Notes under the pieces: model-generated
What the model saw: only the letters and a program-made list of their open reading frames with translations
Database searches by the model: none
What the model was told of the DNA's origin: nothing
Virus record (IMG/VR): IMGVR_UViG_3300034104_006301
Location: 1-37,139 of that record
DNA length: 37,139 nucleotides
Direction: 5' to 3' (one strand)
Origin: a virus
Shown: positions 1,036 through 33,653 of the stretch, piece after piece
Position numbering within the stretch: the stretch's first letter is position 1
Layout of the letters: each line of letters starts with the position of its first letter
Made by a program: the position numbers and the translations under genes

Positions 1036-1386
1036 ATGAAAACCAATTTAAAAAATATTATAAAACGGGTATTAAATGAAGAGGTCACCGAGACCAGTAC
1101 TCTTTATTGGGAATTACCAGAAAAATTGGTTGATGAATTGGGTCTTCAATTATATAAAGAAAATGATGTCGTATTTCTTGTTGAAATTCATTTTGATACA
1201 AGAAATATTGTTTTTGAATTAACCACAACAAACCAGTTTGGTGATTTGGTACCTTACGACGATTCATTAGAGGTACCAGCATCTTATAATGGTTGGTATA
1301 GAAGAAATCTTGATGACCTATCCGATGAATTTAAAAGATTTATTTTTAGAAGATTAGATCCTAAATGGTTAAAGTATTTATTTTAA
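1036..1386 (+). CDS. Putative virion cargo protein with short propeptide-like leader
   Basis: A 116-residue protein of unknown function. The N-terminus (KNIIKRVLNEEVTE) is a shortened form of the LTESDL-type leader and ends in L-N-E. The same short form (NIIKRVIKEE) opens the gene at 18641. The body is acidic with aromatic residues. The next gene begins 2 nt after the stop, so the two are probably co-transcribed. Confidence 0.8.
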   Translation: MKTNLKNIIKRVLNEEVTETSTLYWELPEKLVDELGLQLYKENDVVFLVEIHFDTRNIVFELTTTNQFGDLVPYDDSLEVPASYNGWYRRNLDDLSDEFKRFIFRRLDPKWLKYLF

Positions 1387-1388
1387 AT

Positions 1389-2102
1389 ATGAAAATCATA
1401 ATTACAGAAGAACAATTTTATAATCTCATTCCCCAATCTGTTAGAAGGAGAATGACCGAAAAAGAGTTTCAAATTCTTTATGATATTATTGATAATAATA
1501 AAAGATATTATGTTGCACAAGATTTTGATAGGTACCTTGAAGGTAATTTACAAGATTCATTAAATGAATTTATTAAATACTACAAAGTTGAAGAAATTGA
1601 CCCAAACCTTAATAATGATGATTGGGATGATGAGGAAAATCTTAAATATAAAATTTTTTGGCAATTAATTCCATTTCTAAAAAAGAAATATTACGATGAC
1701 TTATATGATTATCATAAGGAGTATCATAAACGACGTGGAAGTATGAATGAATCTAAAGACGAAAGATTGTTTAAGGAACTACCAATATTTATTAGAAGAA
1801 GAATAACTCCAGATGATTTGGATTATATTGATGGAGAATTAACACATTATATTTTATCAACACCACCAACAAATAGGTTTGAAGATTTTTCTAGTTCTGT
1901 TATTGGTGATGTTCTTCACGAATTTATTATTGGTTATAAGGGTGATGAAATTGAAATTGAGGATGATCCGGAATATGGTGAGGTTTATAATGAAGAAAGT
2001 AGAAATAAAGTTATGGATAGGTATTGGGTTTTAAAACCATTTCTTGAGAAAAAATATAAGGACCGATTATACCAAGCTTGGGAAAGAAAAAAATCAATCT
2101 AG
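1389..2102 (+). CDS. Putative virion protein made of two tandem repeats
   Basis: I place the start at 1389, where the product opens with MKIIITEEQFYNLI; an upstream in-frame start would add eight unlike residues. The 237-residue protein is an internal duplication. Unit 1 (about residues 10-115) and unit 2 (about 125-237) share the order RRR(M/I)T, an acidic F-D/E-D stretch, EFI..Y(K), then PFL.KKY.D.LY. The units are joined by MNESKDE, itself like a leader cleavage site. The leader has no clear [IL]-x-E of its own. Function unknown. Confidence 0.85.
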   Translation: MKIIITEEQFYNLIPQSVRRRMTEKEFQILYDIIDNNKRYYVAQDFDRYLEGNLQDSLNEFIKYYKVEEIDPNLNNDDWDDEENLKYKIFWQLIPFLKKKYYDDLYDYHKEYHKRRGSMNESKDERLFKELPIFIRRRITPDDLDYIDGELTHYILSTPPTNRFEDFSSSVIGDVLHEFIIGYKGDEIEIEDDPEYGEVYNEESRNKVMDRYWVLKPFLEKKYKDRLYQAWERKKSI

Positions 2103-2145: not shown

Positions 2146-2625
2146 ATGAAAAAAATTATAAAATTAACCGAATCTGATTTAACAAGAATTGTTAAAAGAG
2201 TTATTTTAGAAAACGAAGAACAAAGTTTGGCTGATCAAGAATTGGCTGGAAAAAATATTGATGTACAACAATATTGTTCACCATCTACACCACCAAGAAT
2301 TGTAACAAAAATATTAAATAAATTACCAGATAACTTAAGAAAAAAAGCTATTGATTTTATTAAAAAGTTTGCCAACGCTATTAAAGGTAAAAGTGTTAAA
2401 GAGTTAATTTTACTTAAAAGAGAGTTAAAAGACAAAAAAAACGCATCAAAAAATCTACAAGAACAAGCAGGTTTGATTGTTATTGCCGGACTTACAATCT
2501 CAGTAGAATTATTACTTTTAATTGGTGGTATTATTTTATTTATTATTATTGTATATATAATTATAAAATCTAGTAAAGGTGGTGGGTCTTGTAATCCCGG
2601 ATGGTGGGATAATCTAAATCAATAA
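2146..2625 (+). CDS. Putative virion protein, LTESDL leader and C-terminal membrane helix
   Basis: A 159-residue protein. The leader KKIIKLTESDLTRIVKRVILE (residues 2-22) is the clearest example of the LTESDL type and ends in I-L-E. A basic central region (residues ~50-100) follows. One strongly hydrophobic segment lies at about residues 108-142 (LIVIAGLTISVELLLLIG then FIIIVYIII), enough for one or two membrane passes. The tail is short and Gly/Cys-rich (GGGSCNPGWW). If cleaved after E22, the mature protein would be a small membrane protein. Function unknown. Confidence 0.85.
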   Translation: MKKIIKLTESDLTRIVKRVILENEEQSLADQELAGKNIDVQQYCSPSTPPRIVTKILNKLPDNLRKKAIDFIKKFANAIKGKSVKELILLKRELKDKKNASKNLQEQAGLIVIAGLTISVELLLLIGGIILFIIIVYIIIKSSKGGGSCNPGWWDNLNQ

Positions 2626-2637
2626 AATAAAAAAATT

Positions 2638-3186
2638 ATGAATAAATTTATTATAACAGAAGAAGAAAAATCAAGAATTATTGGTATGCACCAAAATGCA
2701 ACCTCAAAACAATATTTATCTGAAGATATAAATGAACAATTGGGTTCAGACATTAAAGCAGCTGCCAAAGGTCTTGGGGCTAGAGTTGGTACTATTGCTC
2801 AGAATTTAGGTAAAGCTGTCGGTATTAATAAAAGTGATAGGACATTACAAAGTCCAGAATTAAATGCTCAGATGGCAAAGATAAAATCTAAAGTTCAGTC
2901 ATTCCAAAAAATAATTGATGGTTTGAACACTGATATTGCAGCAATACAACAAGTTGCAAAATCTCAAATGACGGGTCAGTATCAACCGGAAGCAACTCAA
3001 ATAAACACTTTAATTACAAATTACTCTCAATTATTAGGTAATTTAACTCAATACAACAATAGTATTATAAATCAACAACAAACACAACAACAAACACCAA
3101 CACAACAACCAACACAACAACCAACACAACAACCAACACAACAACCAACACAACCTCAAGCAATTCCACCACAACAAGTTGCATAA
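2638..3186 (+). CDS. Putative virion protein, TEEE leader and PTQQ-repeat tail
   Basis: A 182-residue protein with the TEEE-type leader NKFIITEEEKSRIIGMHQ.A...QYLSED; the L-S-E tripeptide is the likely cleavage point. The middle is Ala/Gln/Lys-rich and probably helical. The C-terminus from about residue 150 is a low-complexity run of PTQQ units encoded by 12-bp tandem repeats. It starts 12 nt after the previous stop, without a promoter of its own. Function unknown. Confidence 0.85.
   Translation: MNKFIITEEEKSRIIGMHQNATSKQYLSEDINEQLGSDIKAAAKGLGARVGTIAQNLGKAVGINKSDRTLQSPELNAQMAKIKSKVQSFQKIIDGLNTDIAAIQQVAKSQMTGQYQPEATQINTLITNYSQLLGNLTQYNNSIINQQQTQQQTPTQQPTQQPTQQPTQQPTQPQAIPPQQVA
3097..3156 (+). 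repeat. 12-bp tandem repeat encoding PTQQ
   Basis: The unit CCAACACAACAA occurs four times exactly and once with changes, all in frame in the gene at 2638. It could vary in copy number by slippage. It is a coding minisatellite, not a CRISPR. Confidence 0.9.
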
Positions 3187-3281: not shown

Positions 3282-4019
3282 ATGGAAGAAAAGAAACTAT
3301 CAATTAGAGATATTGTAATTAAAGAACAAGAAAGATTAACAATTTTAGTTGATCAATTTATTACAATACAAAATACTATTGAAAATAAATTTGATAAGTT
3401 CTTTAGTGAAATCTTAAAATGTTCAAAAGAGTTTGAACTTAAAAAAAATAAAAGAACATATAGTAAAGAGATAAGATATAGACACGAAAACGGAAGATAT
3501 ATTAACGTTGGGTGCGTCCAAAAAGATTACAATGAATGTTCTATTTCATATATTGGTAAATTACCAGATAATGTAAACAACCCATTTACCATTTCGGTTC
3601 AAGAACATATTGTCTATGGTAGAAGTTATTGGAATAAAAGAAATGAGGGACTCAAATTAGTTGTAAGAATCAACTATGATAAAGAAATTTTTTACAAGAC
3701 AGGTAAAGGACTTGTAAAAAAAATAAATGAAGAGGTACAATTAATTTGGGATAGACATAATTCTAAACTTGTTAGCGAACGTAAACGTGAGTTAGCTGTT
3801 TCTTCTGTAAGTAAAAAATTTGGTAAATGTTTAGTTACAAATAGTGATAATTCAGTAATTACAATCTTATTTGAAAATAGTGTTAATATATCATTATACT
3901 ATAACTCAAATCTTGAAACCGGTGAAGTTACTTTTACTCTTCGTAATTTAAATTTTGGTTCGTCAATAAAAAATGAAAGTAAACTAAACGATTTAATCAA
4001 ATTTTTTAGTAGTATATGA
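3282..4019 (+). CDS. Hypothetical protein, host-type promoter, no leader
   Basis: A 245-residue soluble, Lys/Asn-rich protein with an N-terminal helical region (RDIVIKEQERLTILVDQF) and a beta-rich remainder. I do not recognise the family. Unlike its neighbours it has no propeptide-like leader and is transcribed from a host-type promoter, so I infer expression on a different schedule, probably inside the infected cell rather than in the virion. Confidence 0.8.
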   Translation: MEEKKLSIRDIVIKEQERLTILVDQFITIQNTIENKFDKFFSEILKCSKEFELKKNKRTYSKEIRYRHENGRYINVGCVQKDYNECSISYIGKLPDNVNNPFTISVQEHIVYGRSYWNKRNEGLKLVVRINYDKEIFYKTGKGLVKKINEEVQLIWDRHNSKLVSERKRELAVSSVSKKFGKCLVTNSDNSVITILFENSVNISLYYNSNLETGEVTFTLRNLNFGSSIKNESKLNDLIKFFSSI

Positions 4020-4043: not shown

Positions 4044-4919
4044 ATGAAAAAAATAGTTAGAATTACCGAATCAGAACTTAATCATATCACTAAAAGGGTA
4101 ATTTTTGAAATGGATAATGAAAAAAAAGAATTTCCAGAATCATATAGAGATTTGTATGACCAACTACCAGAAGATTTAAAAAAATTATTGTTTAAACAGT
4201 GGGAAGCAAAACAAAATCCAAAATGGCATCCAGAAGGTAATTCATTAAAACATATTTTAGTTGTCATAAAGAGAGCTTACCATCATTATCCGGAGGACCC
4301 AAATATGATTATGACAGCACTATTCCACGACTTAGGTAAAATGGATACATACGGAATCAACCCAAAAACTGGTGAACCTACGGCTTATGGTCACGAAGAT
4401 AAATCTGAAAAATATGTTGAGGAGTATAAAGATTGGATTGAATCATACGAAGGAACAGATGTTGATGAAATTAAATATTTGGTTAAAAACCATATGAAAA
4501 TTAAACCATCAACCTGGGATGTAATGAAAGACACAAAAAAAGAACCAATATCATCTCATAAAGCTTTTGAAAAATTAAAAGGGTTTACAGATAAACTTGA
4601 TGGTGGCGGAACAGATATTTCGGAACAACAAATAAGAAAAATCATTAAACAATTTATTAATGAAGAAAGGGAAGATAGTATTTCAAAACCATTAGGTTAT
4701 GACAGTTTTCAAAAAAAATGTAAAACAAAAAATAAAGGTTCTTTTCGTACATTTACCGATGGGGTACATTTAAAATGTTTGGAGACTAAAGGTACATTTT
4801 TTACTCAAGATAAAACGACCGGATTAACAGTTAAAGAAAAACCTTTTAAAAATAAGGTAGGTGTAAATGGTACCTGGGTTTTAAATGGAAATAAAATTAA
4901 TCTTAAAACAACATTATAA
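4044..4919 (+). CDS. HD-domain phosphohydrolase-like protein with N-terminal and internal leaders
   Basis: A 291-residue protein. Residues 2-22 are an LTESDL-type leader (KKIVRITESELNHITKRVIFE, ending I-F-E). Residues ~60-175 form an HD domain: H in SLKHI, HD in ALFHDLGK (about 95-96), H in GHEDKS (about 117) and H in KNHMK (about 150). Such domains hydrolyse phosphate esters or nucleotides using metal ions. A second leader-like segment, ISEQQIRKIIKQFINEE, lies at about residues 192-208, before a C-terminal domain with paired Cys residues. Two propeptide-bearing proteins may thus be fused and cut apart on maturation. Substrate unknown. Confidence 0.8.
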   Translation: MKKIVRITESELNHITKRVIFEMDNEKKEFPESYRDLYDQLPEDLKKLLFKQWEAKQNPKWHPEGNSLKHILVVIKRAYHHYPEDPNMIMTALFHDLGKMDTYGINPKTGEPTAYGHEDKSEKYVEEYKDWIESYEGTDVDEIKYLVKNHMKIKPSTWDVMKDTKKEPISSHKAFEKLKGFTDKLDGGGTDISEQQIRKIIKQFINEEREDSISKPLGYDSFQKKCKTKNKGSFRTFTDGVHLKCLETKGTFFTQDKTTGLTVKEKPFKNKVGVNGTWVLNGNKINLKTTL

Positions 4920-4938
4920 AGAATTAGACATTTTAAAA

Positions 4939-4963
4939 CTCCACTCTCTAAGTGGGGTTTTTT
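4939..4963 (+). terminator. Rho-independent terminator
   Basis: CTCCAC / GTGGGG stem, then a T run, 20 nt after the stop of the HD-domain gene. Confidence 0.8.
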
Positions 4964-4970
4964 GTTTTAT

Positions 4971-4985
4971 GATATATTTATAAAT
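4971..4985 (+). promoter_or_regulatory. TATTTAT promoter element
   Basis: GATATATTTATAAAT, 8 nt upstream of the ATG at 4994. Confidence 0.5.
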
Positions 4986-4993
4986 AAAATAAT

Positions 4994-5398
4994 ATGAAAA
5001 AAATAGTAAGACTTAATGAATCAGACCTTACTCGTATTGTTAAACGAGTGGTTAATGAGTCCGATAAAAAAAATAAGGACCTAGACGATAATATCAAAAT
5101 CTATAATTTATATAAAAAAGGTGAAATACCTAAAAAACATTTTGATATGTTTATGGGTATTTTAACAAGAAAAGAAAAGGAAGATTTGATGGATTATATT
5201 AGAAATGGAAAAAATAAATCTGATATCCAGGAAATGCGTCGAGGTTCTGATGATGAAATGTTTGATCTTGAAATAGATAAAATAAAAAGGGCTCTTCACG
5301 ATATTAAAAGAATGGCACATCACGACCCACAAACAGTTGACCATATTTGTAATATGATTGTTAATGTTTCTTTACCAAGATTAAAAGAATTTAGATAA
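4994..5398 (+). CDS. Putative virion protein, LTESDL-type leader
   Basis: A 134-residue charged, probably all-helical protein. The leader KKIVRLNESDLTRIVKRVVNE ends in V-N-E, a conservative departure from [IL]-x-E. The body contains HDIKRMAHHDP and CNMIV but matches no family I know. The next gene starts 5 nt downstream, so the pair is probably one transcript. Confidence 0.8.
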   Translation: MKKIVRLNESDLTRIVKRVVNESDKKNKDLDDNIKIYNLYKKGEIPKKHFDMFMGILTRKEKEDLMDYIRNGKNKSDIQEMRRGSDDEMFDLEIDKIKRALHDIKRMAHHDPQTVDHICNMIVNVSLPRLKEFR

Positions 5399-5403
5399 AT
5401 ATT

Positions 5404-5760
5404 ATGGATAAATATAGATTTAATCAATTATTAGAATCAACAATGGGAAATGTTAAACCATTGTTAAGTGAAAACGACACCCAAGAACTAAGTTCGGTTG
5501 AACAAAACCTAATCAATCTGGCAAACGCTGAAAGATTTTTGGTAGATTTTGGAAAATCATCTAACCCAGATAATACCGATGAAGTAACGTATACAGATTT
5601 AAGTGATGTGAGTGTTAAAGACGATTTTACAATACACTATGACCGTATGATTGAGTATTTAAATGATAATGACAATGAAGTTACATTATTTGATAATTAC
5701 AATAATAAAAAATTTAGATTTGAGCTTGATGGTGATAAACTTATTATAACAAAACTATAG
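5404..5760 (+). CDS. Putative virion protein, atypical leader
   Basis: A 118-residue acidic protein. The N-terminus (DKYRFNQLLESTMGNVKPLLSEN) is not one of the two main leader types but carries L-L-E and L-S-E, either of which would suit the same protease. The remainder is acidic with regular beta-type alternation. Function unknown. Confidence 0.75.
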   Translation: MDKYRFNQLLESTMGNVKPLLSENDTQELSSVEQNLINLANAERFLVDFGKSSNPDNTDEVTYTDLSDVSVKDDFTIHYDRMIEYLNDNDNEVTLFDNYNNKKFRFELDGDKLIITKL

Positions 5761-5778
5761 TTTTTTTAACTTATTGTG

Positions 5779-5790
5779 GTATTTATAAAT
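5779..5790 (+). promoter_or_regulatory. TATTTAT promoter element
   Basis: GTATTTATAAAT, 11 nt upstream of the ATG at 5802. Confidence 0.5.
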
Positions 5791-5801
5791 AAAATTAATT
5801 T

Positions 5802-6491
5802 ATGAAAAAATTTATTATAACAGAAGAAGAAAGAAGCAGAATCCTTGGAATGCATAATAAGGCTGTCGGGAGACAGTATTTGATGGAAAATACTGGTTAC
5901 GATAGTACTCAAGGCCCGAAAGTAAATGATGGACCTGCCGCTTATAATTACTTTATGGGTATTGTTAATAAAACAAAAACTTTAAAAAAGGGTACTGCAT
6001 GGGTTGGTAAAAACACATATTGGGTTGTAACATCAGATTGGGGTGAAGGGCAAACTGGTGCCATAATTGGAGAACGATGTGACATTCTTATGAGAGGAAT
6101 TGTGAAAAGAAACGGACTTTATTTTGATGTTTCAAATGATAGTGAATCTATGTTAATGAATTTGGCTAAAACTAATGCCGATTCATTTTTAAATACACTT
6201 AATGGTAATGAACCAGATAAATGGTTACCTAATACACAAACATTAAAATCAGAGTCTACTGGTACTCCAGGTGGTAATATAGCGCTTGTTGGTGGATTAG
6301 AGACTTTTAAAAAAATGGTTAAAAATTTACCTAATAAAGAACAATTATTAACAAACTTTATTAATGCTAGAAAAACAAAACCTAATTTTGGTTTTGGAGC
6401 TGTACCTCAAGACCAACAAGATTTATACCCTCCACTAACACCAACAACGGCAACACCAGTTAAAACTCAACAACCAGTAAAAAAACCATAA
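5802..6491 (+). CDS. Putative virion protein, TEEE leader and QPVKKP tail
   Basis: A 229-residue protein. The leader KKFIITEEERSRILGMHNKA..RQYLMEN carries L-M-E. The central domain has WVGKNTYWVV and GERCDILMRG. The Thr/Pro-rich C-terminus ends in QPVKKP, the same last six residues as the protein at 7023. Leader, linker and tail are thus shared while the centres differ, which points to a modular family. Function unknown. Confidence 0.85.
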   Translation: MKKFIITEEERSRILGMHNKAVGRQYLMENTGYDSTQGPKVNDGPAAYNYFMGIVNKTKTLKKGTAWVGKNTYWVVTSDWGEGQTGAIIGERCDILMRGIVKRNGLYFDVSNDSESMLMNLAKTNADSFLNTLNGNEPDKWLPNTQTLKSESTGTPGGNIALVGGLETFKKMVKNLPNKEQLLTNFINARKTKPNFGFGAVPQDQQDLYPPLTPTTATPVKTQQPVKKP

Positions 6492-6493
6492 TA

Positions 6494-6521
6494 AAAAAAG
6501 TCCTCAATTGAGGACTTTTTT
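6494..6521. terminator. Bidirectional terminator
   Basis: Near-perfect palindrome: A tract, GTCCTC, AATT, GAGGAC, T tract. It lies between the convergent genes 5802 (+) and 6524 (-) and can end transcription from both sides. Confidence 0.9.
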
Positions 6522-6523
6522 AT

Positions 6524-6946
6524 TTAAAAAGAAACCATTGTGTATTTTGTTGGTTTGGTTATAACATAACCAAAAATTAATCTGTAGTAATAAATAAATT
6601 CTTTATTTTCTAGGTTCAAAATAATTTTTGTATCAATTGCTGTATCATCAAGTGTTATAGTGTATTCATAACTATTTTGATTAATATCTAAAATTGCAAC
6701 ATCAGCAATCATTTGTCCCTCAAAAAACAACATACATCTATTGTTTTTGAAATCCAATGTATAATTACAATCTGTAACCTCATTTGAAACTGTGTCTGGA
6801 TTTGCAATTGCAATTTTAAAAATAGTATCATTAAAATTTTGAATTTGGTCAAAATTGTCAATATGAACATCAACAATGTTCGGTAATTTTTGAGAAAAAC
6901 CAAAAATTACAAAAATAAAGGATAATACGATAAATAAAGTTTTCAT
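6524..6946 (-). CDS. Exported protein with signal peptide
   Basis: A 140-residue protein. Residues 1-19 (KTLFIVLSFIFVIFGFSQ) form a typical Bacteroidetes signal peptide with FSQ at the cleavage point, so the product should leave the cytoplasm. The mature part is a small beta-rich domain with two Cys. It is one of few genes on this strand in the region, has no propeptide leader, and stands alone between 5802 and 7023. A role at the host envelope is inferred only from the export signal. Confidence 0.8.
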   Translation of the reverse strand: MKTLFIVLSFIFVIFGFSQKLPNIVDVHIDNFDQIQNFNDTIFKIAIANPDTVSNEVTDCNYTLDFKNNRCMLFFEGQMIADVAILDINQNSYEYTITLDDTAIDTKIILNLENKEFIYYYRLIFGYVITKPTKYTMVSF

Positions 6947-6966
6947 AGAATAATAGTTTTTTTTTA

Positions 6967-6981
6967 CAAATATAAATATTT
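6967..6981 (-). promoter_or_regulatory. Promoter region of the 6524 gene
   Basis: Read on the minus strand it contains AATATTTATATTTG: both the TATTTAT element and a host-type TATATTTG -7 box. No convincing -33 TTTG is seen at the right distance. Confidence 0.4.
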
Positions 6982-6996
6982 TTTTTTAACTATTCT

Positions 6997-7008
6997 AATA
7001 TTTATAAT
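6997..7008 (+). promoter_or_regulatory. TATTTAT promoter element
   Basis: AATATTTATAAT, 14 nt upstream of the ATG at 7023. Confidence 0.5.
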
Positions 7009-7022
7009 TAAAATAAAATACT

Positions 7023-8090
7023 ATGAATAGATTAATTATAACAGAAGAAGAAAGAAGTAGAATACTTGGGATGCACCAATCGGCAACTAAAAAACAGTAT
7101 TTAAATGAAGATGCTGTAACAGTTGCACCAGGAACAATATCAGTACCATACAATATAGACTCAAAAACAGGTGCACAAGTACTTGCAACAAATAAATATG
7201 TTAAGGTTACTATAATAAATGAAAAAACCCCACAGAATAAAAACGGTTGGTTAACTGAAATGGGGTATGATAGTCTTGGTCAAATCCAATTTCAGACTCC
7301 TGGTTTATCTTTTCCTTTGAAGGGTATCCAAAAAGATTCAAACGGAAATTTAACTGGTATGTTTGCTATAACACCTAGCCAAAAAGATTTAATTAATTAC
7401 CTTACAAGTATGAATGGTAAAAATTTACCTAACACAAATTCTGTTTTTATTGAACTAAAAGGAAAGGGTGCTGTCAAATCATTACCAATGGGTGTCACCA
7501 CTAAATTTACAACATATAACCCAAGCACACCAGCAACCACAACACCAACTAAAACTAAAGGATTAAATGAATCTGATATTAGAAGAATTGTAAGAAGAGT
7601 TATTAAGGAATCAAATAGAGGTTATTTGGTAGAAGATGACTTTAAAGGTGGGCTAACCTTAGCTTTAATGAATCAACTTAATAGCTATTTAAATAGTTTA
7701 ATTCCTAAAGCTAAAGCTATGAATGTTGCTATGAATAGTGTTTTTAGTGTTGTACAATCTGGTACATCACCAGATGTAAATGGTAACCCAGTACCAAAAT
7801 ATACAATAAATTACGGGTCTAAAGATATATTTCAAGGTGAAGGATTTTCAGATGTTGATTTACAAGGTGCAATGAAATCTGATTATTTAAATAAAATATA
7901 CCCAACTAGAATTAACACTAAATTAAATGCTAATAACATTACGGCGGTGAAATCAAAGGAACTTTCAAATTTAGCGATGAGATTTGATTTGGCGAATGGT
8001 GCTTCAAACACATATAAAGCTTGGGTTGCATCAATTGGACCACAACAACCAACAAAAACACCTACCAAACAACCAGTAAAAAAACCTTAA
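7023..8090 (+). CDS. Fusion of two leader-bearing virion proteins
   Basis: A 355-residue protein. Residues 1-33 are a TEEE-type leader (EEERSRILGMHQSA..KQYLNED, with L-N-E). A first domain follows, with an Ala/Thr/Pro linker near residues 165-178. At about 180-197 an LTESDL-type leader appears in the middle of the chain (LNESDIRRIVRRVIKES, ending I-K-E). A second domain follows, then the tail QPVKKP shared with the protein at 5802. The order suggests fusion of two precursors, each with its own propeptide and cleavage site. Function unknown. Confidence 0.85.
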   Translation: MNRLIITEEERSRILGMHQSATKKQYLNEDAVTVAPGTISVPYNIDSKTGAQVLATNKYVKVTIINEKTPQNKNGWLTEMGYDSLGQIQFQTPGLSFPLKGIQKDSNGNLTGMFAITPSQKDLINYLTSMNGKNLPNTNSVFIELKGKGAVKSLPMGVTTKFTTYNPSTPATTTPTKTKGLNESDIRRIVRRVIKESNRGYLVEDDFKGGLTLALMNQLNSYLNSLIPKAKAMNVAMNSVFSVVQSGTSPDVNGNPVPKYTINYGSKDIFQGEGFSDVDLQGAMKSDYLNKIYPTRINTKLNANNITAVKSKELSNLAMRFDLANGASNTYKAWVASIGPQQPTKTPTKQPVKKP

Positions 8091-8112
8091 ACAAATTAAA
8101 ATAGAATAAAAT

Positions 8113-8139
8113 CCCCATCTAATTAAGGTGGGGTTTTTT
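8113..8139 (+). terminator. Rho-independent terminator
   Basis: CCCCATC / GGTGGGG stem followed by TTTTTT, the same stem as at 3208. Confidence 0.85.
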
Positions 8140-8149
8140 GTTTTATAAA

Positions 8150-8161
8150 GTATTTATCTAA
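8150..8161 (+). promoter_or_regulatory. TATTTAT promoter element
   Basis: GTATTTATCTAA, 1 nt upstream of the ATG at 8163. Confidence 0.45.
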
Positions 8162-8162
8162 A

Positions 8163-8732
8163 ATGAGATACATAATAACAGAAAACCAATACGAAAAAAT
8201 ACAAAACCAGATTTTAAACTCAATTAAAAAACATGGGTTTTATGATGCTATGAAGGCTTATAAATTAAATGTTGAAGGTCTTCATAAAATATTTGGTGAA
8301 GGTAATCTACCAAAATTTGATTGTCGTGATTTGTATCAAATATTTTCATACTTTGTTTTTAAAGATTTAGTTCATACTGAATTTAAAATTAAAAAAAATG
8401 GGTCAATTAGTTTTTATACTGACAGTTTTTCCGGTACTATTTTTTTTAGAAGAAAGTTCAAAGATTCAACTATGATTGATGGTTATGCAACACCTTACTT
8501 TGATGGTAATTGTAATTTACCTTTGGACGCAGATTTTTACGTATATAATATTAACGATGATGAAGAACCAGATGAAGTTGATATTGTGGGTAACTATCAA
8601 GAATCTGTTAAACTACCAAAACAATGGAACTCATTTATGGAAATGAAAAACTGGCTTGAAAATGACTATGTTAAAATTTTAATTGATTACACAAATAATG
8701 TTTATGATAAACTAGGTGACTATCGTGATTAA
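8163..8732 (+). CDS. Hypothetical protein with TENQ-type N-terminus
   Basis: A 189-residue protein. It opens with MRYIITENQYEKIQNQIL, a relative of the leader family (compare MKIIITENQ at 8736 and MKITITESQYKKLILE at 21335) but without a clear [IL]-x-E. The centre is rich in Phe, Tyr and Asp (KFDCRDLYQIFSYFVF), and an acidic patch (DDEEPDEVD) lies near residue 140. The family is not recognised. The next gene follows after 3 nt. Confidence 0.8.
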   Translation: MRYIITENQYEKIQNQILNSIKKHGFYDAMKAYKLNVEGLHKIFGEGNLPKFDCRDLYQIFSYFVFKDLVHTEFKIKKNGSISFYTDSFSGTIFFRRKFKDSTMIDGYATPYFDGNCNLPLDADFYVYNINDDEEPDEVDIVGNYQESVKLPKQWNSFMEMKNWLENDYVKILIDYTNNVYDKLGDYRD

Positions 8733-8735: not shown

Positions 8736-9386
8736 ATGAAAATTATAATAACAGAAAATCAAAATAAATTAAGACATCTATACCGAAGAATTGGTGAGAT
8801 TGAAGATGTGTTTAAGGAATATGAGGAACTTTTTACACGTACATCCAAAACATTAAATAAAGATGGTTTTATTCACGCGGTGGGTATGTTTATTGGTGAT
8901 ATAATTGCCGGAAAACTAGAAGAAAAAGATGTTGATTTTGATTATGTTACTTTTAGAAATCAAATTAAAAGATTTGTTGAAACACATTTTTATGAGGAAT
9001 TAATTGACTTTTATTTTAAACATAAAAAACAATTAAACGAATCAAAAAATATGGCTTTTCTAAGAAGAAGAGAAACAATAAAAGATTTGATTGATAATGG
9101 TATTGAAGTTATTCGTAATGATACCGATGTGTGTGATTATACATTTTCTGAATTTCTTACTGAAGTTTCTTGGCAAGTATCAGATAATTCAGATGAGTTG
9201 GGAATTGAACTTACTAATACTAAAATAGATTTAATACATAGGTGGGTTAGAAATAATTTTTCACAATATATCAAAGACGAGTATCTTGAATTAATTGATA
9301 GTGAAGGATGTAATGATTATGATGAAGACGAAATAGATGATGATTATCTATCAGGATTTTTACATAATGTGGATAATAATCAATAA
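8736..9386 (+). CDS. Hypothetical two-unit acidic protein
   Basis: A 216-residue protein that starts MKIIITENQNKLRHLYRRIGE (I-G-E). Its second half begins after LNESK (about residues 100-104), like the MNESK joint in the protein at 1389. Both halves are helical with an FxxF..D pattern, so an ancient duplication is possible, though much less obvious than at 1389. The C-terminus is strongly acidic (YDEDEIDDDY). Function unknown. Confidence 0.8.
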   Translation: MKIIITENQNKLRHLYRRIGEIEDVFKEYEELFTRTSKTLNKDGFIHAVGMFIGDIIAGKLEEKDVDFDYVTFRNQIKRFVETHFYEELIDFYFKHKKQLNESKNMAFLRRRETIKDLIDNGIEVIRNDTDVCDYTFSEFLTEVSWQVSDNSDELGIELTNTKIDLIHRWVRNNFSQYIKDEYLELIDSEGCNDYDEDEIDDDYLSGFLHNVDNNQ

Positions 9387-12130: not shown

Positions 12131-13042
12131 ATGAAAAAAATTATTAAATTAACTGAATCAGAATTAAGTAAAGTTATTAAAAAAATAATTACTGAAGTTA
12201 CTATACCTAAAACTACAGATGAAATAAAAGATTTTCAATCTTGGGTTGTAAATGTAAAAAAAAATAAAACAATTTTAGGTAAGGGTGGTGATAGTGGTTT
12301 TGGTGATGATGGAAAATGGGGTTCAAAAACACAATTAGCTTGGAACACGTATTCAAATGAGTATAATAAAAATGTTAAAAAAACTAGTAAGAAAAAACCC
12401 TTGGTAACCCCAAGTACAAGTGTTTTACAAATTGCTAAAATCTGGTTTAATAAATTAACAAAAGGTAAAAACCCAAGTAAAAATTCTTCATTATTATTTG
12501 ATGGTTCTAAACTTATTTGGTTGTCAAATGGTAGTGAAATTGAGAGCTGGGGAGCAACTAGTGGTGTTAATCTTTTTAACGCCGAACCTTCTCAGTGGTT
12601 AGATCTTGCAAAAAATATATTTTCATCTAAACAGGAAAAATCAAAATTAAAAGGGTTTGGACCAATCCCAGAAGGAAAATATACTGTTGGTAAATTACAA
12701 ACAAGTAAATTGGAACGAACTAACCCATTTATGGATTTTGTTAGATTAATATTTAAAACAAATCAAACAAATCATGATTGGAATAAAGATACTGCTAGTA
12801 CAAGAATTTCTTGGGGGTACTATAGAGCGCCAATAATTTCAAATAGTGGAACCAAAACATATGGTAGGAGTGATTTTTATATTCACGGTGGTGCACTACC
12901 AGCATCCCATGGATGTATTGACTTAACATCAAGTATGGATGATTTTGCTAAATTTTATTCTTCTTGGGCAAGTAAATACAAAAAAAACTCAATTCAGTTA
13001 ACTGTTAAGTATTCATCATCATTAATTAATATACTCGCGTAA
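12131..13042 (+). CDS. Putative virion L,D-transpeptidase (YkuD-like) with leader
   Basis: A 303-residue protein. The leader KKIIKLTESELSKVIKKIITE ends in I-T-E. Residues ~30-80 resemble a peptidoglycan-binding unit (DGKWGSKTQLAWN). Residues ~115-300 look like a YkuD L,D-transpeptidase: GPIPEGKYTVGKL, then IHGGALPASHGCIDL at about 251-265, holding the catalytic His and Cys. The usual Arg after GC(V/I) is Asp here. Such enzymes cross-link or exchange peptides of cell-wall murein. The leader implies packaging in the head and injection, in contrast to the exported relative at 13112. Confidence 0.82.
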   Translation: MKKIIKLTESELSKVIKKIITEVTIPKTTDEIKDFQSWVVNVKKNKTILGKGGDSGFGDDGKWGSKTQLAWNTYSNEYNKNVKKTSKKKPLVTPSTSVLQIAKIWFNKLTKGKNPSKNSSLLFDGSKLIWLSNGSEIESWGATSGVNLFNAEPSQWLDLAKNIFSSKQEKSKLKGFGPIPEGKYTVGKLQTSKLERTNPFMDFVRLIFKTNQTNHDWNKDTASTRISWGYYRAPIISNSGTKTYGRSDFYIHGGALPASHGCIDLTSSMDDFAKFYSSWASKYKKNSIQLTVKYSSSLINILA

Positions 13043-13111: not shown

Positions 13112-13654
13112 ATGAAAAAGTTATTATTTTATTGTTTTTTATTTGTTGTCTCAGCATTTAGTTTTATGTCATTCACATCAAAAAGTGAAAACGAACTCTT
13201 TACAATTGCGTCTGAAAAATTAATTGAGTATAGAATCAAAAAAAGAGATTATGTTATTATTGTAGATTACACCAAACCTATTTTTAGTGAAAGACTTTAC
13301 GTTTTAGATATGAAAAACAAAAAAATTGTTTTAAAATCAACCGTAAGTCATGCGTTTAAATCGGGTGTAATGTATCCAACAGACTTTAGTAATGTTAGTG
13401 GTACAAACAAATCATCAAAAGGAGCTTTTATTACAAAAGGAACATATAATGGAGGTTTTGGTTATTCAATGGTAATCAGAGGTCTAGATAGAGGTATAAA
13501 TGATAATGTTGAATCTAGAAAAATAATTTTCCACTCAACAAAAAAAATGAAAACAAGTTGGTCAAATGGTTGTTTTGCCACACCAGAAGAAACAAATAAA
13601 ACAATAATTGAACTAACAAAAAATGGTAGATTAGTCTATGTCATAACAGATTAA
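13112..13654 (+). CDS. Exported murein L,D-transpeptidase catalytic-domain-like protein
   Basis: A 180-residue protein. Residues 1-19 are a signal peptide (LLFYCFLFVVSAFSFMSF). The rest matches the short L,D-transpeptidase-like family: DYTKPIFSERLYVLDM, a central GAFITKGTYNGGFGYS, a conserved His in IIFHSTKKM and the catalytic pattern SWSNGCFATPEE (S-x-G-C). Expected site of action is the periplasmic cell wall. It has a host-type promoter and no propeptide leader, so it is probably made early and exported by the infected cell. Confidence 0.8.
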   Translation: MKKLLFYCFLFVVSAFSFMSFTSKSENELFTIASEKLIEYRIKKRDYVIIVDYTKPIFSERLYVLDMKNKKIVLKSTVSHAFKSGVMYPTDFSNVSGTNKSSKGAFITKGTYNGGFGYSMVIRGLDRGINDNVESRKIIFHSTKKMKTSWSNGCFATPEETNKTIIELTKNGRLVYVITD

Positions 13655-15589: not shown

Positions 15590-16171
15590 ATGAAAAGAAT
15601 TTTACTAATTTTAATGACAATGATTTCAACAGTTTCATTATCACAACTATCAACAGTTAATCCAGATACAGTTTGTTATCAATCAACCGTATTATCAACC
15701 TATACAATTCCTTCTGTTGGCTCCGGAACATACACTTGGACTGTTACATCCCCTGGCGTAATAACCGCTGGTCAAGGAACTAATAGTATTTCGGTAAACT
15801 GGTCAGCTGCAACCCCTGGATTAATAACAAATGGTGTGTCAGTGACATATTCTTCACCCCCACCAGCAAACTGTCCTGCAACACCAGTTAACTTAAACGT
15901 ATTAATTTATCAAGTTATACCAACAATTACAACTTTAGGTCCGTTTTGTGAATCAGATCCTTGCGTAAACTTGGTTGGGACACCGGTTGGTGGTACTTGG
16001 TCTGGTTTAGGGGTGTCTGGTAACCAATTTTGTCCAGATAACGTAACAAATGGAACAAATGCAACATCAACAGTGACATATACTGTAGGTTCTGCTGGAT
16101 GTACGTTCTCAACATCAGTTGTTGTACCAGTATTTGGAACACCAACATTACAGCCAATCCAACATAATTAA
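15590..16171 (+). CDS. Secreted adhesin-like protein 2 of 3
   Basis: A 193-residue protein. Signal peptide MKRILLILMTMISTVSLSQ, then Ig/PKD-like beta segments typical of flavobacterial surface proteins: GSGTYTWTVTSPG, TPGLITNGVSVTY, GTPVGGTWSGLGVSG. It ends in LQPIQHN. The stop overlaps the next start by one base (TAATG). Predicted to be displayed on or released from the host outer membrane. Confidence 0.85.
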   Translation: MKRILLILMTMISTVSLSQLSTVNPDTVCYQSTVLSTYTIPSVGSGTYTWTVTSPGVITAGQGTNSISVNWSAATPGLITNGVSVTYSSPPPANCPATPVNLNVLIYQVIPTITTLGPFCESDPCVNLVGTPVGGTWSGLGVSGNQFCPDNVTNGTNATSTVTYTVGSAGCTFSTSVVVPVFGTPTLQPIQHN

Positions 16172-16737
16172 TGAAATATATTCTTTTTATAGTATTTTTT
16201 AGTATGTCCTTACTTACTCTGGCACAACAGACCTTTGAACTGTGTGCCGGAGAAAGTAAAACTGTTGTATATACATCAGAATCTGGTGGTGATGGAACAA
16301 ATGTATGGTCAGTAAATGGTACACAATACCTTACTAATGACTTAACATATACATTTACCAATTCTGGAACATATAATATTGTATTAAGAAGAGAAAATGG
16401 CCTTTGTTACGTTGAACAAACACTACAGGTGGTAGTAACTGATTGTCCTGGAGTTATTTATTGGGTACCAAATTGTTTTACACCGGATGAAAATGAAGTA
16501 AATCAACAATATGGACCTATTATGTCCGAAGGTTATGATATAAATGGGTTTAATTTTACCATTTTTAACCGTTGGGGTGAGGTTGTATGGGAATCTAATG
16601 ACCCAAATGGTCGTTGGGATGGTACTTTTAATAATAAAATGTGTACAGATGGGGTTTATATCTGGAAATTAACCTTTAATGTCTTTAATAATGATGGAAA
16701 AATCACAGATCACGGACATTTAACAATAATTCGTTAA
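16171..16737 (+). CDS. Secreted protein with gliding-motility-type (CHU_C) C-terminal domain
   Basis: A 188-residue protein. Signal peptide MKYILFIVFFSMSLLTLAQ, then a short beta domain (residues 20-90), then at about 95-188 the T9SS type-B sorting domain: VPNCFTPDENEVN, FTIFNRWGEVVWES, GRWDGT, DGVYIWKLTF and a final GHLTIIR. In Bacteroidetes this domain directs proteins through the type IX secretion system to the surface. Its presence suggests that the phage uses the host's own secretion route. Partners are probably the two preceding gene products. Confidence 0.92.
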   Translation: MKYILFIVFFSMSLLTLAQQTFELCAGESKTVVYTSESGGDGTNVWSVNGTQYLTNDLTYTFTNSGTYNIVLRRENGLCYVEQTLQVVVTDCPGVIYWVPNCFTPDENEVNQQYGPIMSEGYDINGFNFTIFNRWGEVVWESNDPNGRWDGTFNNKMCTDGVYIWKLTFNVFNNDGKITDHGHLTIIR

Positions 16738-18640: not shown

Positions 18641-19255
18641 ATGGGAACATTAGAAAATATAATAAAAAGAGTGATTAAAGAAGAATACCAAAATGGTATG
18701 AGATTACTTAAAAAAACTAAAATTTCAGACGAACTTAAATATCATATTGAAAATGGTATAACACTTTCTGAAAATATTTTTCGTATTTATTCCGATAATT
18801 ATTTTAATTTAATCAATGAAGTTAGAAAACTATATAATAAAGGTCTTATTGATTTAAATAATAAAGATAGATGGATTGTTGAAAGTGATTTAGGAAAATC
18901 TGTTATTTTAGAGAGTGGTGAAAAAGTATGGCTTGACGCACCATTTGAGGTTCAAGAAACTTTAACTGAAGCAAAACATAGAGGAAAAAATGTTAGGTTA
19001 GGAAGTCCTTTTAGAACTCCTGGCGGACCAAAGAAATTTGCTGTTTATGTTAAAAGCCCTGGGGGTAATATTAAAAAGGTTACATTTGGGGATCCGAATT
19101 TAAGAGTTAGAAATGCAAGTAAATCTCGTGCTAAATCATTTAGAGCTCGTCATAAATGTGACCAGAAAAAAGATAGAACAACTGCTGGATACTGGTCCTG
19201 TAATGTCTCAAGATATAGAAAAAAATTAGGTCTTAAATCTTCAAGAAGTTGGTAA
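18641..19255 (+). CDS. Putative virion protein with basic FGDP..FRARH..C domain
   Basis: A 204-residue protein. The leader GTLENIIKRVIKEE ends in I-K-E. A winged-helix-like middle (about 20-110) follows. The C-terminal ~80 residues are very basic and contain KKFAVYVKSPGGNIKKVTFG, then NASKSRAKSFRARHKCDQ and YWSCNVSRYRKKLG. This small two-Cys domain is widespread in structural and head-maturation proteins of environmental phages (DUF5872-like, from memory). DNA or scaffold binding inside the head is plausible. Confidence 0.82.
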   Translation: MGTLENIIKRVIKEEYQNGMRLLKKTKISDELKYHIENGITLSENIFRIYSDNYFNLINEVRKLYNKGLIDLNNKDRWIVESDLGKSVILESGEKVWLDAPFEVQETLTEAKHRGKNVRLGSPFRTPGGPKKFAVYVKSPGGNIKKVTFGDPNLRVRNASKSRAKSFRARHKCDQKKDRTTAGYWSCNVSRYRKKLGLKSSRSW

Positions 19256-30886: not shown

Positions 30887-30959
30887 GGTTCTATGATGTA
30901 ATTGGATAGCATATTTCTCTTCTAAAGAAATCGTTTAGGTTCGAGCCCTAATAGGACTA
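30887..30959 (+). tRNA. tRNA-Arg(TCT), solitary copy
   Basis: 73 nt. Acceptor GGTTCTA / TAGGACT, anticodon arm TTTCT-CTTCTAA-AGAAA, T arm TTAGG-TTCGAGC-CCTAA, discriminator A, no CCA encoded. It lies 2.2 kb before the main array and decodes AGA, a frequent codon here. Confidence 0.93.
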
Positions 30960-30999
30960 CAAAATTTTAATCAAACTTGGTTCGTTTTTTATTTTTATT

Positions 31000-31011
31000 G
31001 ATATTTATAAT
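31000..31011 (+). promoter_or_regulatory. TATTTAT promoter element
   Basis: GATATTTATAAT, 11 nt before the ATG at 31023. Confidence 0.5.
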
Positions 31012-31022
31012 AAAAAAATGTT

Positions 31023-31622
31023 ATGAATTTTTTTGAAAAATATAAAAGGGATGATTTACAAAATTTAATTTACGAAAAAAACCTTTCGTACCGTGAAATT
31101 GGTAAAATTTATGGTGTAAGTGATACATACATTAAAAAAGTGGCAAATAAATTGGGTATATCATTACCTAAAAGAAAAAATTTTAGTTCAAAATTTATAC
31201 CACACAATAAAGGTACTGGTAAAAAAATTAAATGTGAAAATTGTCAAACTGAAATAATAAATCCTTGGAAAAATCAAAAGTACTGTTCAAGGGAATGTAA
31301 CACCAGTTTTAACATAAATGAGAAATATTTGAATTACCAAAAAAATCAAGAATTATACTGTGATGTAGACGTAAATATGGGTTGGATAAAAAAACACATA
31401 TTAAGTGAACAAAAAAATACTTGTACTATTTGTGGAATTGGGGATATTTGGAATAATAAAACAATAGTTTTTATTTTGGACCATATTGATGGTAACGCAC
31501 ATAATAATACTAGAAAAAATTTAAGGTTAATATGTCCAAATTGTGATTCACAACTTGAGACATATAAAAGTAAAAATAAAAATTCAGCTAGAAAGGAGAG
31601 ATATTTAAAAAATTATAAATAA
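31023..31622 (+). CDS. HNH homing-type endonuclease
   Basis: A 199-residue protein. Residues ~12-55 are a helix-turn-helix (LSYREIGKIYGVSDTYIKKV). Residues ~73-100 are a zinc finger (CENCQTEI, CSREC). Residues ~135-185 are the HNH nuclease with a second Cys pair: CTICGIGD, ILDHIDGNAHNNTRKNLRLI, CPNC. The H in LDHIDG and the N in the NN/N positions form the metal site. Such free-standing nucleases nick DNA and spread into neighbouring phage genes. Confidence 0.92.
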   Translation: MNFFEKYKRDDLQNLIYEKNLSYREIGKIYGVSDTYIKKVANKLGISLPKRKNFSSKFIPHNKGTGKKIKCENCQTEIINPWKNQKYCSRECNTSFNINEKYLNYQKNQELYCDVDVNMGWIKKHILSEQKNTCTICGIGDIWNNKTIVFILDHIDGNAHNNTRKNLRLICPNCDSQLETYKSKNKNSARKERYLKNYK

Positions 31623-31648
31623 ATAATAATTAAACCAAAAAAAAGTAT

Positions 31649-31656
31649 TATATTTG
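31649..31656 (+). promoter_or_regulatory. Host-type -7 box
   Basis: TATATTTG, 30 nt before the ATG at 31687. No good -33 TTTG is seen, so the promoter is weak or needs an activator. Confidence 0.4.
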
Positions 31657-31686
31657 TGTATATTATTAATTTAAAACTATATAAAA

Positions 31687-32310
31687 ATGAAAAAACTATT
31701 TATTTTCTTAACTGTAATTTTTTTGGTTTATTGTTGTAATAACCTAGATGAAAACAAAAAAATTGGAACATCTCAAAATGAACTTGATGAATATTTTAAT
31801 GAAGTTGTGGCAAGTTCGGAGTATGACCCAGAAAACCATACAATATCAAAATGGAAAAAAGATGTAAAAATTTTTGTCAAAGGAACAAAAAAACAAAATC
31901 TTATGACAGAACTTAATTCAATTGTAACTGAATTAAATGGTCTTATTGAACCAATTGATATTAAAATTGTAAACAAAGAAAGTGATGCAAATCTTGTTTT
32001 ATTTTTTGGCTCACCAGAAGGGTTTACAAAACTATACCCAAATTTAAAACCATATATGGAAGAAAATTGGGGTCTATTTGAAATATTTGGTGGTGAAGAA
32101 ATCACATCTGGTCGAGTTTTCATTGATATTGTTAGAAATACAGGTTTGGCAGCACAAAAACACGTACTACGAGAAGAACTTACTCAATCACTCGGTCTTT
32201 GCAATGATTCTTATTCATACCCGGAAAGTATTTTTTACCAGGATTGGTCTGAAACAAATGAATATGCCGAAATTGATAAAGAATTGATTAAAATGTTATA
32301 CAACAAATAA
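31687..32310 (+). CDS. DUF2927-like lipoprotein
   Basis: A 207-residue protein. Type II signal KKLFIFLTVIFLVYCC (lipid Cys at 16 or 17). The mature part shows the DUF2927 pattern: WKKDVKIFVKG, a TELN...I motif, ANLVLFFGS and HVLREELTQSLGLCND, followed by YPESIFYQDW. DUF2927 proteins look like inactive or atypical zinc peptidases; the HVLREE-TQ helix replaces HExxH. Expected in the host envelope. It has a host-type -7 box rather than a TATTTAT element. Confidence 0.82.
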   Translation: MKKLFIFLTVIFLVYCCNNLDENKKIGTSQNELDEYFNEVVASSEYDPENHTISKWKKDVKIFVKGTKKQNLMTELNSIVTELNGLIEPIDIKIVNKESDANLVLFFGSPEGFTKLYPNLKPYMEENWGLFEIFGGEEITSGRVFIDIVRNTGLAAQKHVLREELTQSLGLCNDSYSYPESIFYQDWSETNEYAEIDKELIKMLYNK

Positions 32311-32311
32311 T

Positions 32312-32419
32312 ATGGAAGATATTTTTGAAGAACTGCATATTGAGTTCATAAATTCTGAAGAATATTTTTTATATCTTAATGATATTTATCTTTATGAAGA
32401 AAAAGATATTATTAAGTGA
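32312..32419 (+). CDS. Possible very small acidic protein (35 aa)
   Basis: ATG at 32312 begins 1 nt after the preceding stop. The product (MEDIFEELHIEFINSEEYFL then YLYEEKDIIK) is acidic and aromatic. It overlaps the next gene by 26 nt and includes that gene's TATTTAT element, so it may be spurious. Confidence 0.35.
   Translation: MEDIFEELHIEFINSEEYFLYLNDIYLYEEKDIIK
32381..32393 (+). promoter_or_regulatory. TATTTAT promoter element
   Basis: GATATTTATCTTT, directly abutting the ATG at 32394. Confidence 0.45.
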
Positions 32420-32831
32420 AAGTCAACTTATTGAACTTATTAAAAGAATAATTAAAGAAGAAAAATATTCTGAAGAAGATCTTAAATATACCCACCCAAG
32501 AACTGGTGCTGCTTGTAAAATCAAGGTTGCAGAAAACAAGGTAACCAATAGAGAACACTCAAAATTTGGAGCTGTATTACTTTGTGATACTTATGGTGAT
32601 GGCGAATATATGGTGACAGCCGAATTACCGGCGGTTGATGGTCCAACACCAGAATCTGTTAGTGATTTTATTTGTGATAATATTGAGAAAACTTATGAAA
32701 TTTTAGATGATATGTTAACTCAAGATGAAGATTTGATGGAAAATGTCAATCACAGAAGATGGGATATTATTGATGAACCAATTAAATGTGGTTTAGAAAG
32801 ACCAAAAGAAAAAAAATCTTGGAAATATTAA
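32394..32831 (+). CDS. Putative virion protein, LTESDL-type leader
   Basis: A 145-residue protein. Start at 32394 (MKKKILLSESQLIELIKRII, then KEE, giving I-K-E); five residues further upstream would be coded by the promoter element. The body opens with THPRTGAACKIKVAENK and is beta-rich, then acidic (LDDMLTQDEDLMENV) with a basic end. Last protein gene before the tRNA array. Function unknown. Confidence 0.82.
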   Translation: MKKKILLSESQLIELIKRIIKEEKYSEEDLKYTHPRTGAACKIKVAENKVTNREHSKFGAVLLCDTYGDGEYMVTAELPAVDGPTPESVSDFICDNIEKTYEILDDMLTQDEDLMENVNHRRWDIIDEPIKCGLERPKEKKSWKY

Positions 32832-32839
32832 TAAAAAAA

Positions 32840-32870
32840 CTTGTCAATTAAAAAAAATTATCTATCTTTG
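32840..32870 (+). promoter_or_regulatory. Host-type promoter ahead of the tRNA array
   Basis: CTTG 32840-32843, 19-nt spacer, TATCTTTG 32863-32870. Confidence 0.65.
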
Positions 32871-32923
32871 TAACAGAAATTAAAACTTTTAGTAATAATA
32901 GTATATTTATAACAAAACAAAAA

Positions 32924-33034
32924 ATGAAAACAACTAATAAACATATGGTCATTTGTAAACCGAGCACCCAGTGGTCGTTTAATAGCTATAGAACGCTTCG
33001 TTCAGATGTTAGGGCATTTTCATTTATGAGTTGA
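32924..33034 (+). CDS. Possible 36-aa peptide or small RNA between promoter and terminator
   Basis: ORF MKTTNKHMVICKPSTQWSFN, then SYRTLRSDVRAFSFMS. The transcript from 32840 would carry it and stop at 33096. The DNA also forms a GAACG / CGTTC hairpin (near 32990-33002), and composition is less AT-rich than in the protein genes, so an untranslated RNA is equally possible. Confidence 0.35.
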   Translation: MKTTNKHMVICKPSTQWSFNSYRTLRSDVRAFSFMS

Positions 33035-33066
33035 TAAAGATTAACAAAAATAAAAAGGAATATAAG

Positions 33067-33096
33067 ACCCGGACTAAAAACAGTTCGGGTTTTTTA
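33067..33096 (+). terminator. Rho-independent terminator
   Basis: ACCCGGACT / AGTTCGGGT (9 bp, one G-T), loop aaaaac, then TTTTTT. It lies before the first tRNA, so the array needs read-through or processing. Confidence 0.88.
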
Positions 33097-33105
33097 TTTT
33101 ATATT

Positions 33106-33177
33106 GCTTTGTAAGCATTGATGGCGATGCGCCTGACTTGTAATCAGGAGAAATTGGTTCGATTCCGATACGAAGCT
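33106..33177 (+). tRNA. tRNA-Thr(TGT)
   Basis: Acceptor GCTTTGT / ACGAAGC, anticodon arm CCTGA-CTTGTAA-TCAGG, T arm ATTGG-TTCGATT-CCGAT, discriminator T. Confidence 0.93.
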
Positions 33178-33213
33178 CAAAAGAAAAAGTTCTTTGACAT
33201 ATTGGCCTTATAA

Positions 33214-33284
33214 TGTTCTCTCGTCTAATGGCAGGACACACGGTTTTGGTCCGTGGGATTGGGGTTCGAGTCCCTGGAGAACAA
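33214..33284 (+). tRNA. tRNA-Gln(TTG)
   Basis: Acceptor TGTTCTC / GAGAACA (U1-A72, as usual for Gln), anticodon arm CACGG-TTTTGGT-CCGTG, T loop TTCGAGT, discriminator A. Confidence 0.92.
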
Positions 33285-33292
33285 CATAAAAA

Positions 33293-33376
33293 GGAAGTCT
33301 AATTTAACCGGCGTTAAACCTAGTCTTGAAAACTAGTGGTACCGAAAGGTATGGGGATCGGCACCTCAGGCTTCCT
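33293..33376 (+). tRNA. tRNA-Ser(TGA)
   Basis: 84 nt with long variable arm (TACC / GGTA). Acceptor GGAAGTC / GGCTTCC, anticodon arm CTAGT-CTTGAAA-ACTAG. T loop is ATCGGCA: A54 in place of T54. Confidence 0.9.
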
Positions 33377-33386
33377 CCAAAAATAA

Positions 33387-33462
33387 CGGGATGTGGACTA
33401 ATTGGCTAAGTCGCCACTTTTGGGAAGTGGACATCATCTAGGTTCGAGTCCTAGTATCCCGA
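33387..33462 (+). tRNA. tRNA-Pro(TGG)
   Basis: Acceptor CGGGATG / TATCCCG, anticodon arm CCACT-TTTGGGA-AGTGG, T arm CTAGG-TTCGAGT-CCTAG, discriminator A. Confidence 0.93.
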
Positions 33463-33530
33463 CTAATAAATAAACAAATAAAAACAAGTGTTATGGAAAG
33501 TGACAAGAGCGACAAGGTTCGCAAACACAA

Positions 33531-33602
33531 TCCCTCGAAGCTTTAAAGTGAAGCTTTCCGCTTTTAACGGAAAGAAGTCGGAGCGTTACCGTCCGGGGGG
33601 AC
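33531..33602 (+). tRNA. tRNA-Lys(TTT)-like, degenerate
   Basis: Anticodon arm TTCCG-CTTTTAA-CGGAA has the canonical Lys loop. A D-arm-like hairpin GCTT / AAGC precedes it. The outer TCCCTC / GGGGGA (one T-G pair) could be a 6-bp acceptor. The T arm is poor: CGGA / TCCG around a 9-nt loop GCGTTACCG without TTC. It is the only Lys anticodon loop in the array. A further 40 nt upstream (33490-33530) contain GTGTT / AACAC and GCGA / TCGC pairings of unknown meaning. Confidence 0.4.
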
Positions 33603-33611
33603 AAAAAAAAA

Positions 33612-33642: not shown

Positions 33643-33653
33643 TAGAAACAAAA

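Follow-up and report, generated by a model that had tools for sequence, protein, structure and literature searches.

Putative two-cargo precursors with internal leader sequences suggest that the T4-type capsid-targeting leader system has a polyprotein form

We analyzed a virus record of 37,139 bases, a genome fragment of a large uncultured phage that we refer to as the window, and found two genes that probably each encode a natural precursor of two cargo proteins in a T4-type phage head. The predicted product of each gene (named by its first base, 4044 or 7023) comprises an N-terminal leader, a first cargo, a second leader within the chain and a second cargo (Table 1). Textbook accounts of such targeting center on the T4 internal proteins, in which each cargo has one targeting peptide. 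The T4-type capsid-targeting leader system is known and the tandem leader-cargo arrangement is what is new here; the two genes are likely to represent a natural polyprotein variant of that system. Related phages have the cargo units both joined and as separate genes, which suggests that one chain can supply several cargo proteins to be packed and cut in viruses with T4-like heads. If this is true, phage heads can process polyproteins, much like RNA viruses. Leader and cut-site sequences would then serve to predict which proteins of uncultured jumbo phages are injected as cargo, and the arrangement would suggest a route to packing several proteins in equal number.

Table 1. Coordinates of the putative precursors, their parts and two further tandem-unit reading frames in the window. 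A slash within a sequence marks a joint or a putative cut site, here and in the text.
Feature	Position	Strand	Basis
Putative two-part precursor 4044 (leader, HD-domain cargo, internal leader, second cargo), 291 aa	4044..4919	+	Pfam HD, E 2.3e-05; HD domain standalone in G027
N-terminal leader of 4044, MKKIVRITESELNHITKRVIFE, residues 1-22	4044..4109	+	Leader profile, 32.1 bits
Internal leader of 4044, ISEQQIRKIIKQFINEE, residues 192-208	4617..4667	+	Profile scores; position equals the end of the G027 homologue and the start of the next gene's leader
Second cargo of 4044, orphan, beta-rich low-confidence model	4668..4919	+	Without relatives; AF2 pLDDT about 30
Putative two-part precursor 7023 (TEEE leader, cargo 1, P/T-rich linker, internal leader, cargo 2), 355 aa	7023..8090	+	Open reading frame; homologues of parts
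TEEE-type N-terminal leader of 7023, MNRLIITEEERSRILGMHQSATKKQYLNE, residues 1-29, end QYLNE	7023..7109	+	Type-B leader family
Cargo 1 domain of 7023, residues 31-168	7113..7526	+	AF2 pLDDT 75-88; standalone homologues in L004, L107, G010, G018
Internal leader of 7023, LNESDIRRIVRRVIKES, residues 181-197	7563..7613	+	40.4 bits
Cargo 2 of 7023, start NRGYLVEDDF	7614..8090	+	64% identity to standalone L107 3361-3918; likewise L305
Further tandem-unit ORF, joined at KKQLNE/SKN	8736..9386	+	Separate homologues of unit 1 (L087) and unit 2 (L293)
Further tandem-unit ORF, duplicated ~115-aa unit, joined at GSMNE/SKD	1365..2102	+	Single-unit homologues in L229, L225, L193, L281

We built leader profiles from the N-terminal leaders of related phages (222 loci, 3.1 Mb of sequence). 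In these phages, diverse and unrelated cargo lies behind common short N-terminal propeptides, comprising 219 distinct long-type and 75 distinct short-type leaders. The profiles used cover the 16- and 12-residue leader cores; an earlier 21-aa profile was dropped. In a logo of 255 leader sequences, position 14 is [IVL] in 97% and position 16 is E in 93%, position 15 is free, and after E16 no conservation is left. Such an abrupt collapse is the pattern expected at a cut site. We note that the site by itself is weak proof, since a protein has several [IVL]-x-E triplets outside any leader context. The significance of internal leader scores was assessed against 1000 shuffled proteomes. For the TEEE-type (type-B) leader family, we found no internal copies, compared with 45 distinct N-terminal members.

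The long and short profiles matched internally in exactly two of the 51 window genes, 4044 and 7023. Both matches (residues 192-208 in 4044, 181-197 in 7023) lie where an earlier note on this DNA had approximately placed leader motifs, and each keeps the [IL]-x-E of its own that the note had described. Its term "complete leader" was an overstatement: the copy in 7023 lacks the start codon and MKKII, the copy in 4044 is weak, and the half that is kept is the cut-site half.

Gene 7023 is almost certainly, to judge from its relatives, a fusion of cargo genes that were once separate. None of the 1000 shuffled proteomes reached the score of its internal leader. In L107, the two halves are separate genes that follow one another in the same order as in 7023. 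The first half is a 180-aa gene (33% identity over residues 9-177), and the second half has its own 185-aa gene 23 bases downstream (3361-3918), whose protein is 64% identical over residues 181-349 of 7023 (E 6e-73). This second gene starts with MKKIIRLTESDL and its leader is MKKIIRLTESDLTRIVRRVIKEQ, of which 13 of the 16 core residues are identical in the internal copy of 7023, with the cut site kept. Relative to L107, four elements are absent in frame from the 7023 junction (KTKG/LNESD): the stop codon, the intergenic spacer, the start codon and the opening codons of the leader. The text there reads TPTKTKG/LNESDIRRIVRRVIKE/S. Both halves also occur as separate neighboring genes, in the same arrangement, in another contig (L305). 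L004 has the first half alone: residues 1-170 are present at 88% identity in a 174-aa protein that stops within the P/T-rich tail, just short of the junction. G010 and G018 have the first half alone as well, G010 with a long-type leader replacing the TEEE type. These are the separate halves for which the earlier note had proposed to search. We rejected G016 as a homologue of the second half because the shared part is mostly leader. Searches with 7023 and the leader gave no match among the INPHARED phages, a result that is weak for the leader since the 23-aa query is short and possibly low-complexity-filtered.

For gene 4044, a fusion of once separate cargo genes is very probable from the sequence comparisons. 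Its internal copy is a degenerate leader match that directly follows DGGGTD. It scored 9.7 bits with the long profile (reached in 2 of the 1000 shuffled proteomes) and 15.1 bits with the short profile (reached in 10). On the first, stricter 21-aa profile it scored 3.0 bits, which is chance level, because that profile required the MKK part that is lost in 4044; the case for fusion therefore leans mainly on a homologue in G027. There, the HD domain stands alone in a 186-aa protein with 77% identity over residues 27-194 of 4044 (81% across the 161-residue HD domain) and with another leader, MNLQENIQRIKQVINLICEE. The protein ends in DGGGNNIEK, which corresponds to the junction position of 4044. 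The next gene overlaps its stop codon (ATGA) and opens with the leader MSIQQIIRKVLKEE; it shows no visible kinship to the second half of 4044. The HD domain lies behind a third kind of leader, MSLKQSIRRILKEED, in L303, and in L302 (5998-6867) it lacks an N-terminal leader and is fused to a phrog_7595 domain at EVLTEA/EYKGKKV. Together, these arrangements indicate that the HD cargo stops at the 4044 junction and that its flanks are exchanged as modules. Searches of viral contigs, of GTDB genome contigs and of 50 leader-bearing records gave no homologue of either the complete 4044 protein or the second half, so that the evidence for fusion is one-sided and concerns the HD half only. The fusion of two precursors proposed in the earlier note is supported for 7023 and for the HD half of 4044, which does occur alone, whereas the second half of 4044 lacks a homologue. 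As a separate observation, the phrog_7595 domain follows LTEA/ in two architectures, behind an unknown N-terminal part in the window (18641-19255) and behind the HD domain in L302.

Pfam and PHROGs detected the HD domain and nothing else in 4044, and no domain in 7023. The HD domain is also the sole confident part of the AF2 model of 4044. In the model of 7023, residues 31-168 are confident, the junction is a low-confidence linker, the leader forms a helix at 183-198 and the second half has low confidence. The input alignments were three and five sequences deep, so the low confidence elsewhere is no sign of disorder. The models are poor beyond the first domains and are, as structures, compatible with a fold that spans the junction. 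Foldseek searches with both models returned nothing below E 0.001.

Protease and capsid genes of the T4 type occur in leader-bearing relatives. An S77 (gp21 family) protease occurs in 21 of 30 leader-bearing records, the one of a relative, L196, lies at 7773-8495, and leader-bearing relatives have a gp23-type capsid protein (E 2.5e-74). Among gp23 homologues, all 14 full or near-full sequences have LIxE near residue 60 (LINE in 13, LIYE in one), and this LINE/A site matches the [IVL]-x-E end of the leaders. No protease, capsid or scaffold gene was recognized in the 37 kb window. Among cultured Bacteroidota phages, Flavobacterium phage immuto is the closest relative by capsid protein. It has gp20, S77 and gp23; three stretches of it, about 150 kb, contain no long-type leader and served as a negative control.

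In the mechanism that we propose, each cargo unit of this phage group would normally have its own N-terminal leader ending at the prohead-protease site [IVL]-x-E. The leader probably steers the cargo to the core of the prohead, a role that the capsid targeting sequence has in T4. Neighboring leader-cargo genes would have merged into one reading frame in 4044 and 7023, and a single N-terminal leader would suffice to bring the entire chain into the head. A gp21-type (S77) protease would then cut behind both leaders and release two mature cargo proteins in equal number, the predicted second products starting with SNRGYLVEDDFK at residue 197 (7023) and EREDSISKPLGYDSFQK at 208/209 (4044), behind the putative P1 glutamates E196 and E207/E208. 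We infer the protease step from the kept [IL]-x-E in its leader context and from the gp21-type protease of the relatives, and there is a good likelihood that the internal leader is indeed cut. We likewise infer that the chain is targeted to the head and that its products are injected into the host. Fixed-ratio delivery would follow if fusion and protease cutting both hold.

We compared this arrangement with that of T4. The T4 capsid targeting sequences are the short propeptides of IPI, IPII, IPIII and Alt, cut by gp21 after L/I-x-E; one N-terminal propeptide is described for the internal proteins, Alt is also cut at its C-terminus, and in IPIII the N-terminal part of the sequence serves mainly for targeting and the end for processing (PMC9026906). 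As in T4, the leaders described here are short N-terminal propeptides with an L/I-x-E end and varied cargo behind similar leaders, and the leader-bearing relatives have a gp21-family (S77) protease and a gp23 capsid protein. Unlike those of T4, they are longer (about 22-29 residues), have no visible sequence kinship to them, are of several kinds, are very numerous and are repeated within one chain. The internal copy of 7023, which has lost the N-terminal part and kept the end with the putative cut site, resembles the IPIII layout, a likeness that is suggestive only. Leader-like sequences were also seen at the C-terminus, apparently in one conserved family (L278 1986-3098, L282 15205-16281, L108 57-734 and L239 15243-15929); they recall T4 Alt, which is also cut near its C-terminus.

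Joined units recur in further reading frames of the window (Table 1) and in other contigs. One ORF in L295 has leaders at residue 1 and at about residue 104. Both halves have counterparts that are separate genes: those in L079 and L207 are 95.7% and 79% identical to the second half, and one in L210 resembles the first. In L112 (3173-4195, - strand), one 340-aa ORF has three short leaders, each preceding a ~110-aa unit; the three units are related to one another and to single units in other contigs. For 7023, 8736 and L295, units that are found separately elsewhere are joined at cut sites; for 4044, this applies to the first unit only. Junctions fused as in 4044 and 7023 themselves were found in no other contig. 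In a survey that included 408 ORFs with N-terminal leaders, 12 of 32 internal leader matches were left under a strict rule for obligate fusion (no start codon near the internal leader, score cut-off of 18 bits), and some of the 12 are barely above 18 bits and may be chance. L034, L056, L084, L242, L269 and others were dropped as obligate fusions because an in-frame ATG precedes the "internal" leader.

The fusions could be real and the internal leader an uncut relic, with trimming at the N-terminus only, so that the product would be, like polyvalent proteins, a chain of two joined domains. We consider this unlikely. The start and the MKK[IV][IV] part are gone from the internal copies, that of 4044 is degenerate, and the HD-phrog_7595 fusion of L302 has no N-terminal leader, all of which would suit a relic. 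However, the cut-site part is kept, the leader cores of L107 and 7023 differ at 3 of 16 residues whereas the cargo is 36% diverged, and [IVL]-x-E is kept in several independent fusions, although the profile itself rewards that residue. It is less likely still that the leader, instead of being a head-targeting propeptide, is a helix at the N-terminus that docks to the host or to another assembly, with another role for the terminal E. Conservation stops sharply at E16, the leader end matches the gp23 site of the same phages, and S77 is present in most leader-bearing records, which argues for a propeptide. In favor of a docking helix, we found no published experiment on a phage carrying such leaders, and immuto, with gp23 and S77, has no long-type leader in the stretches scanned.

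We regard it as very improbable that assembly or sequencing errors joined neighboring genes. The window is a single metagenomic contig and both loci are leader-rich, and repeats are prone to mis-assembly; yet both frames are open across the junction, the second parts lack a start codon, and fusions recur in other contigs, including L295 and L112 with its three leaders. We give the least credence to two overlapping genes in each ORF, with the second unit made from an internal start. Several other internal leaders in the survey do come after an in-frame ATG, but there is no in-frame ATG, GTG or TTG in the 12 codons before the 7023 copy or, on inspection of the sequence, directly before the 4044 copy. 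The second parts are therefore apparently made only as fusions.

The proposed precursors of two cargo proteins, which would be cut at an internal leader, can also be set beside other phage systems. In the heads of the giant phages SPN3US/phiKZ (gp245, gp175), a protease related to gp21 cuts many proteins, and in some of them it cuts at more than one site; the SPN3US motif is A-x-E, and 13 of 14 mapped sites remove N-terminal propeptides (PMC10052503, PMC9026906). In the portions of these papers that we draw on, the extra cuts fall inside removed propeptides and no two-product cargo precursor is seen. Polyvalent proteins of phages and conjugative elements likewise have several effector-like domains per injected chain and were likened to polyproteins by their authors, but they use an embedded peptidase domain (PMC5512222), whereas here the units are separated by the leader/cut-site sequence of the head; neither Pfam nor PHROGs detected an embedded peptidase domain in 4044 or 7023. 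Phage P1 DarB also has an N-terminal signal, which is sufficient to package a reporter; the signal is single, and the portion of the source used here describes no repeated internal copy (PMC9024508). It is quite possible, and we put it forward tentatively, that in a large group of uncultured T4-type phages the head maturation protease acts generally on polyproteins. A single leader would load a tandem chain of two or three units, and cutting in the prohead would yield host-takeover proteins in fixed ratio for injection, with leaders and cargo as freely swapped modules.

We made several further observations. The leader and upstream DNA of window 2609-2727 and 5802-5891 and of L004 6891-7010 are about 80% identical although the genes are otherwise unrelated, so the leader and its 5' flank may travel as a DNA module. 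In L107 (3942-4484, - strand), the N-terminus resembles a palimpsest of three leader kinds (QILEKRMLNE, KKQYLNE and GRVIKEQ), as if old cut sites had remained after leader replacement. Two adjacent L,D-transpeptidase genes lie at 12131-13042 and 13112-13654 of the window, one with a leader and the other apparently secreted. A CHU_C type IX secretion domain at 16171-16737 (E 2.3e-12) points to a Bacteroidota host. Finally, ARAGORN predicted 19 tRNA genes at 30887-37135, mostly in a dense array at the right end of the window.
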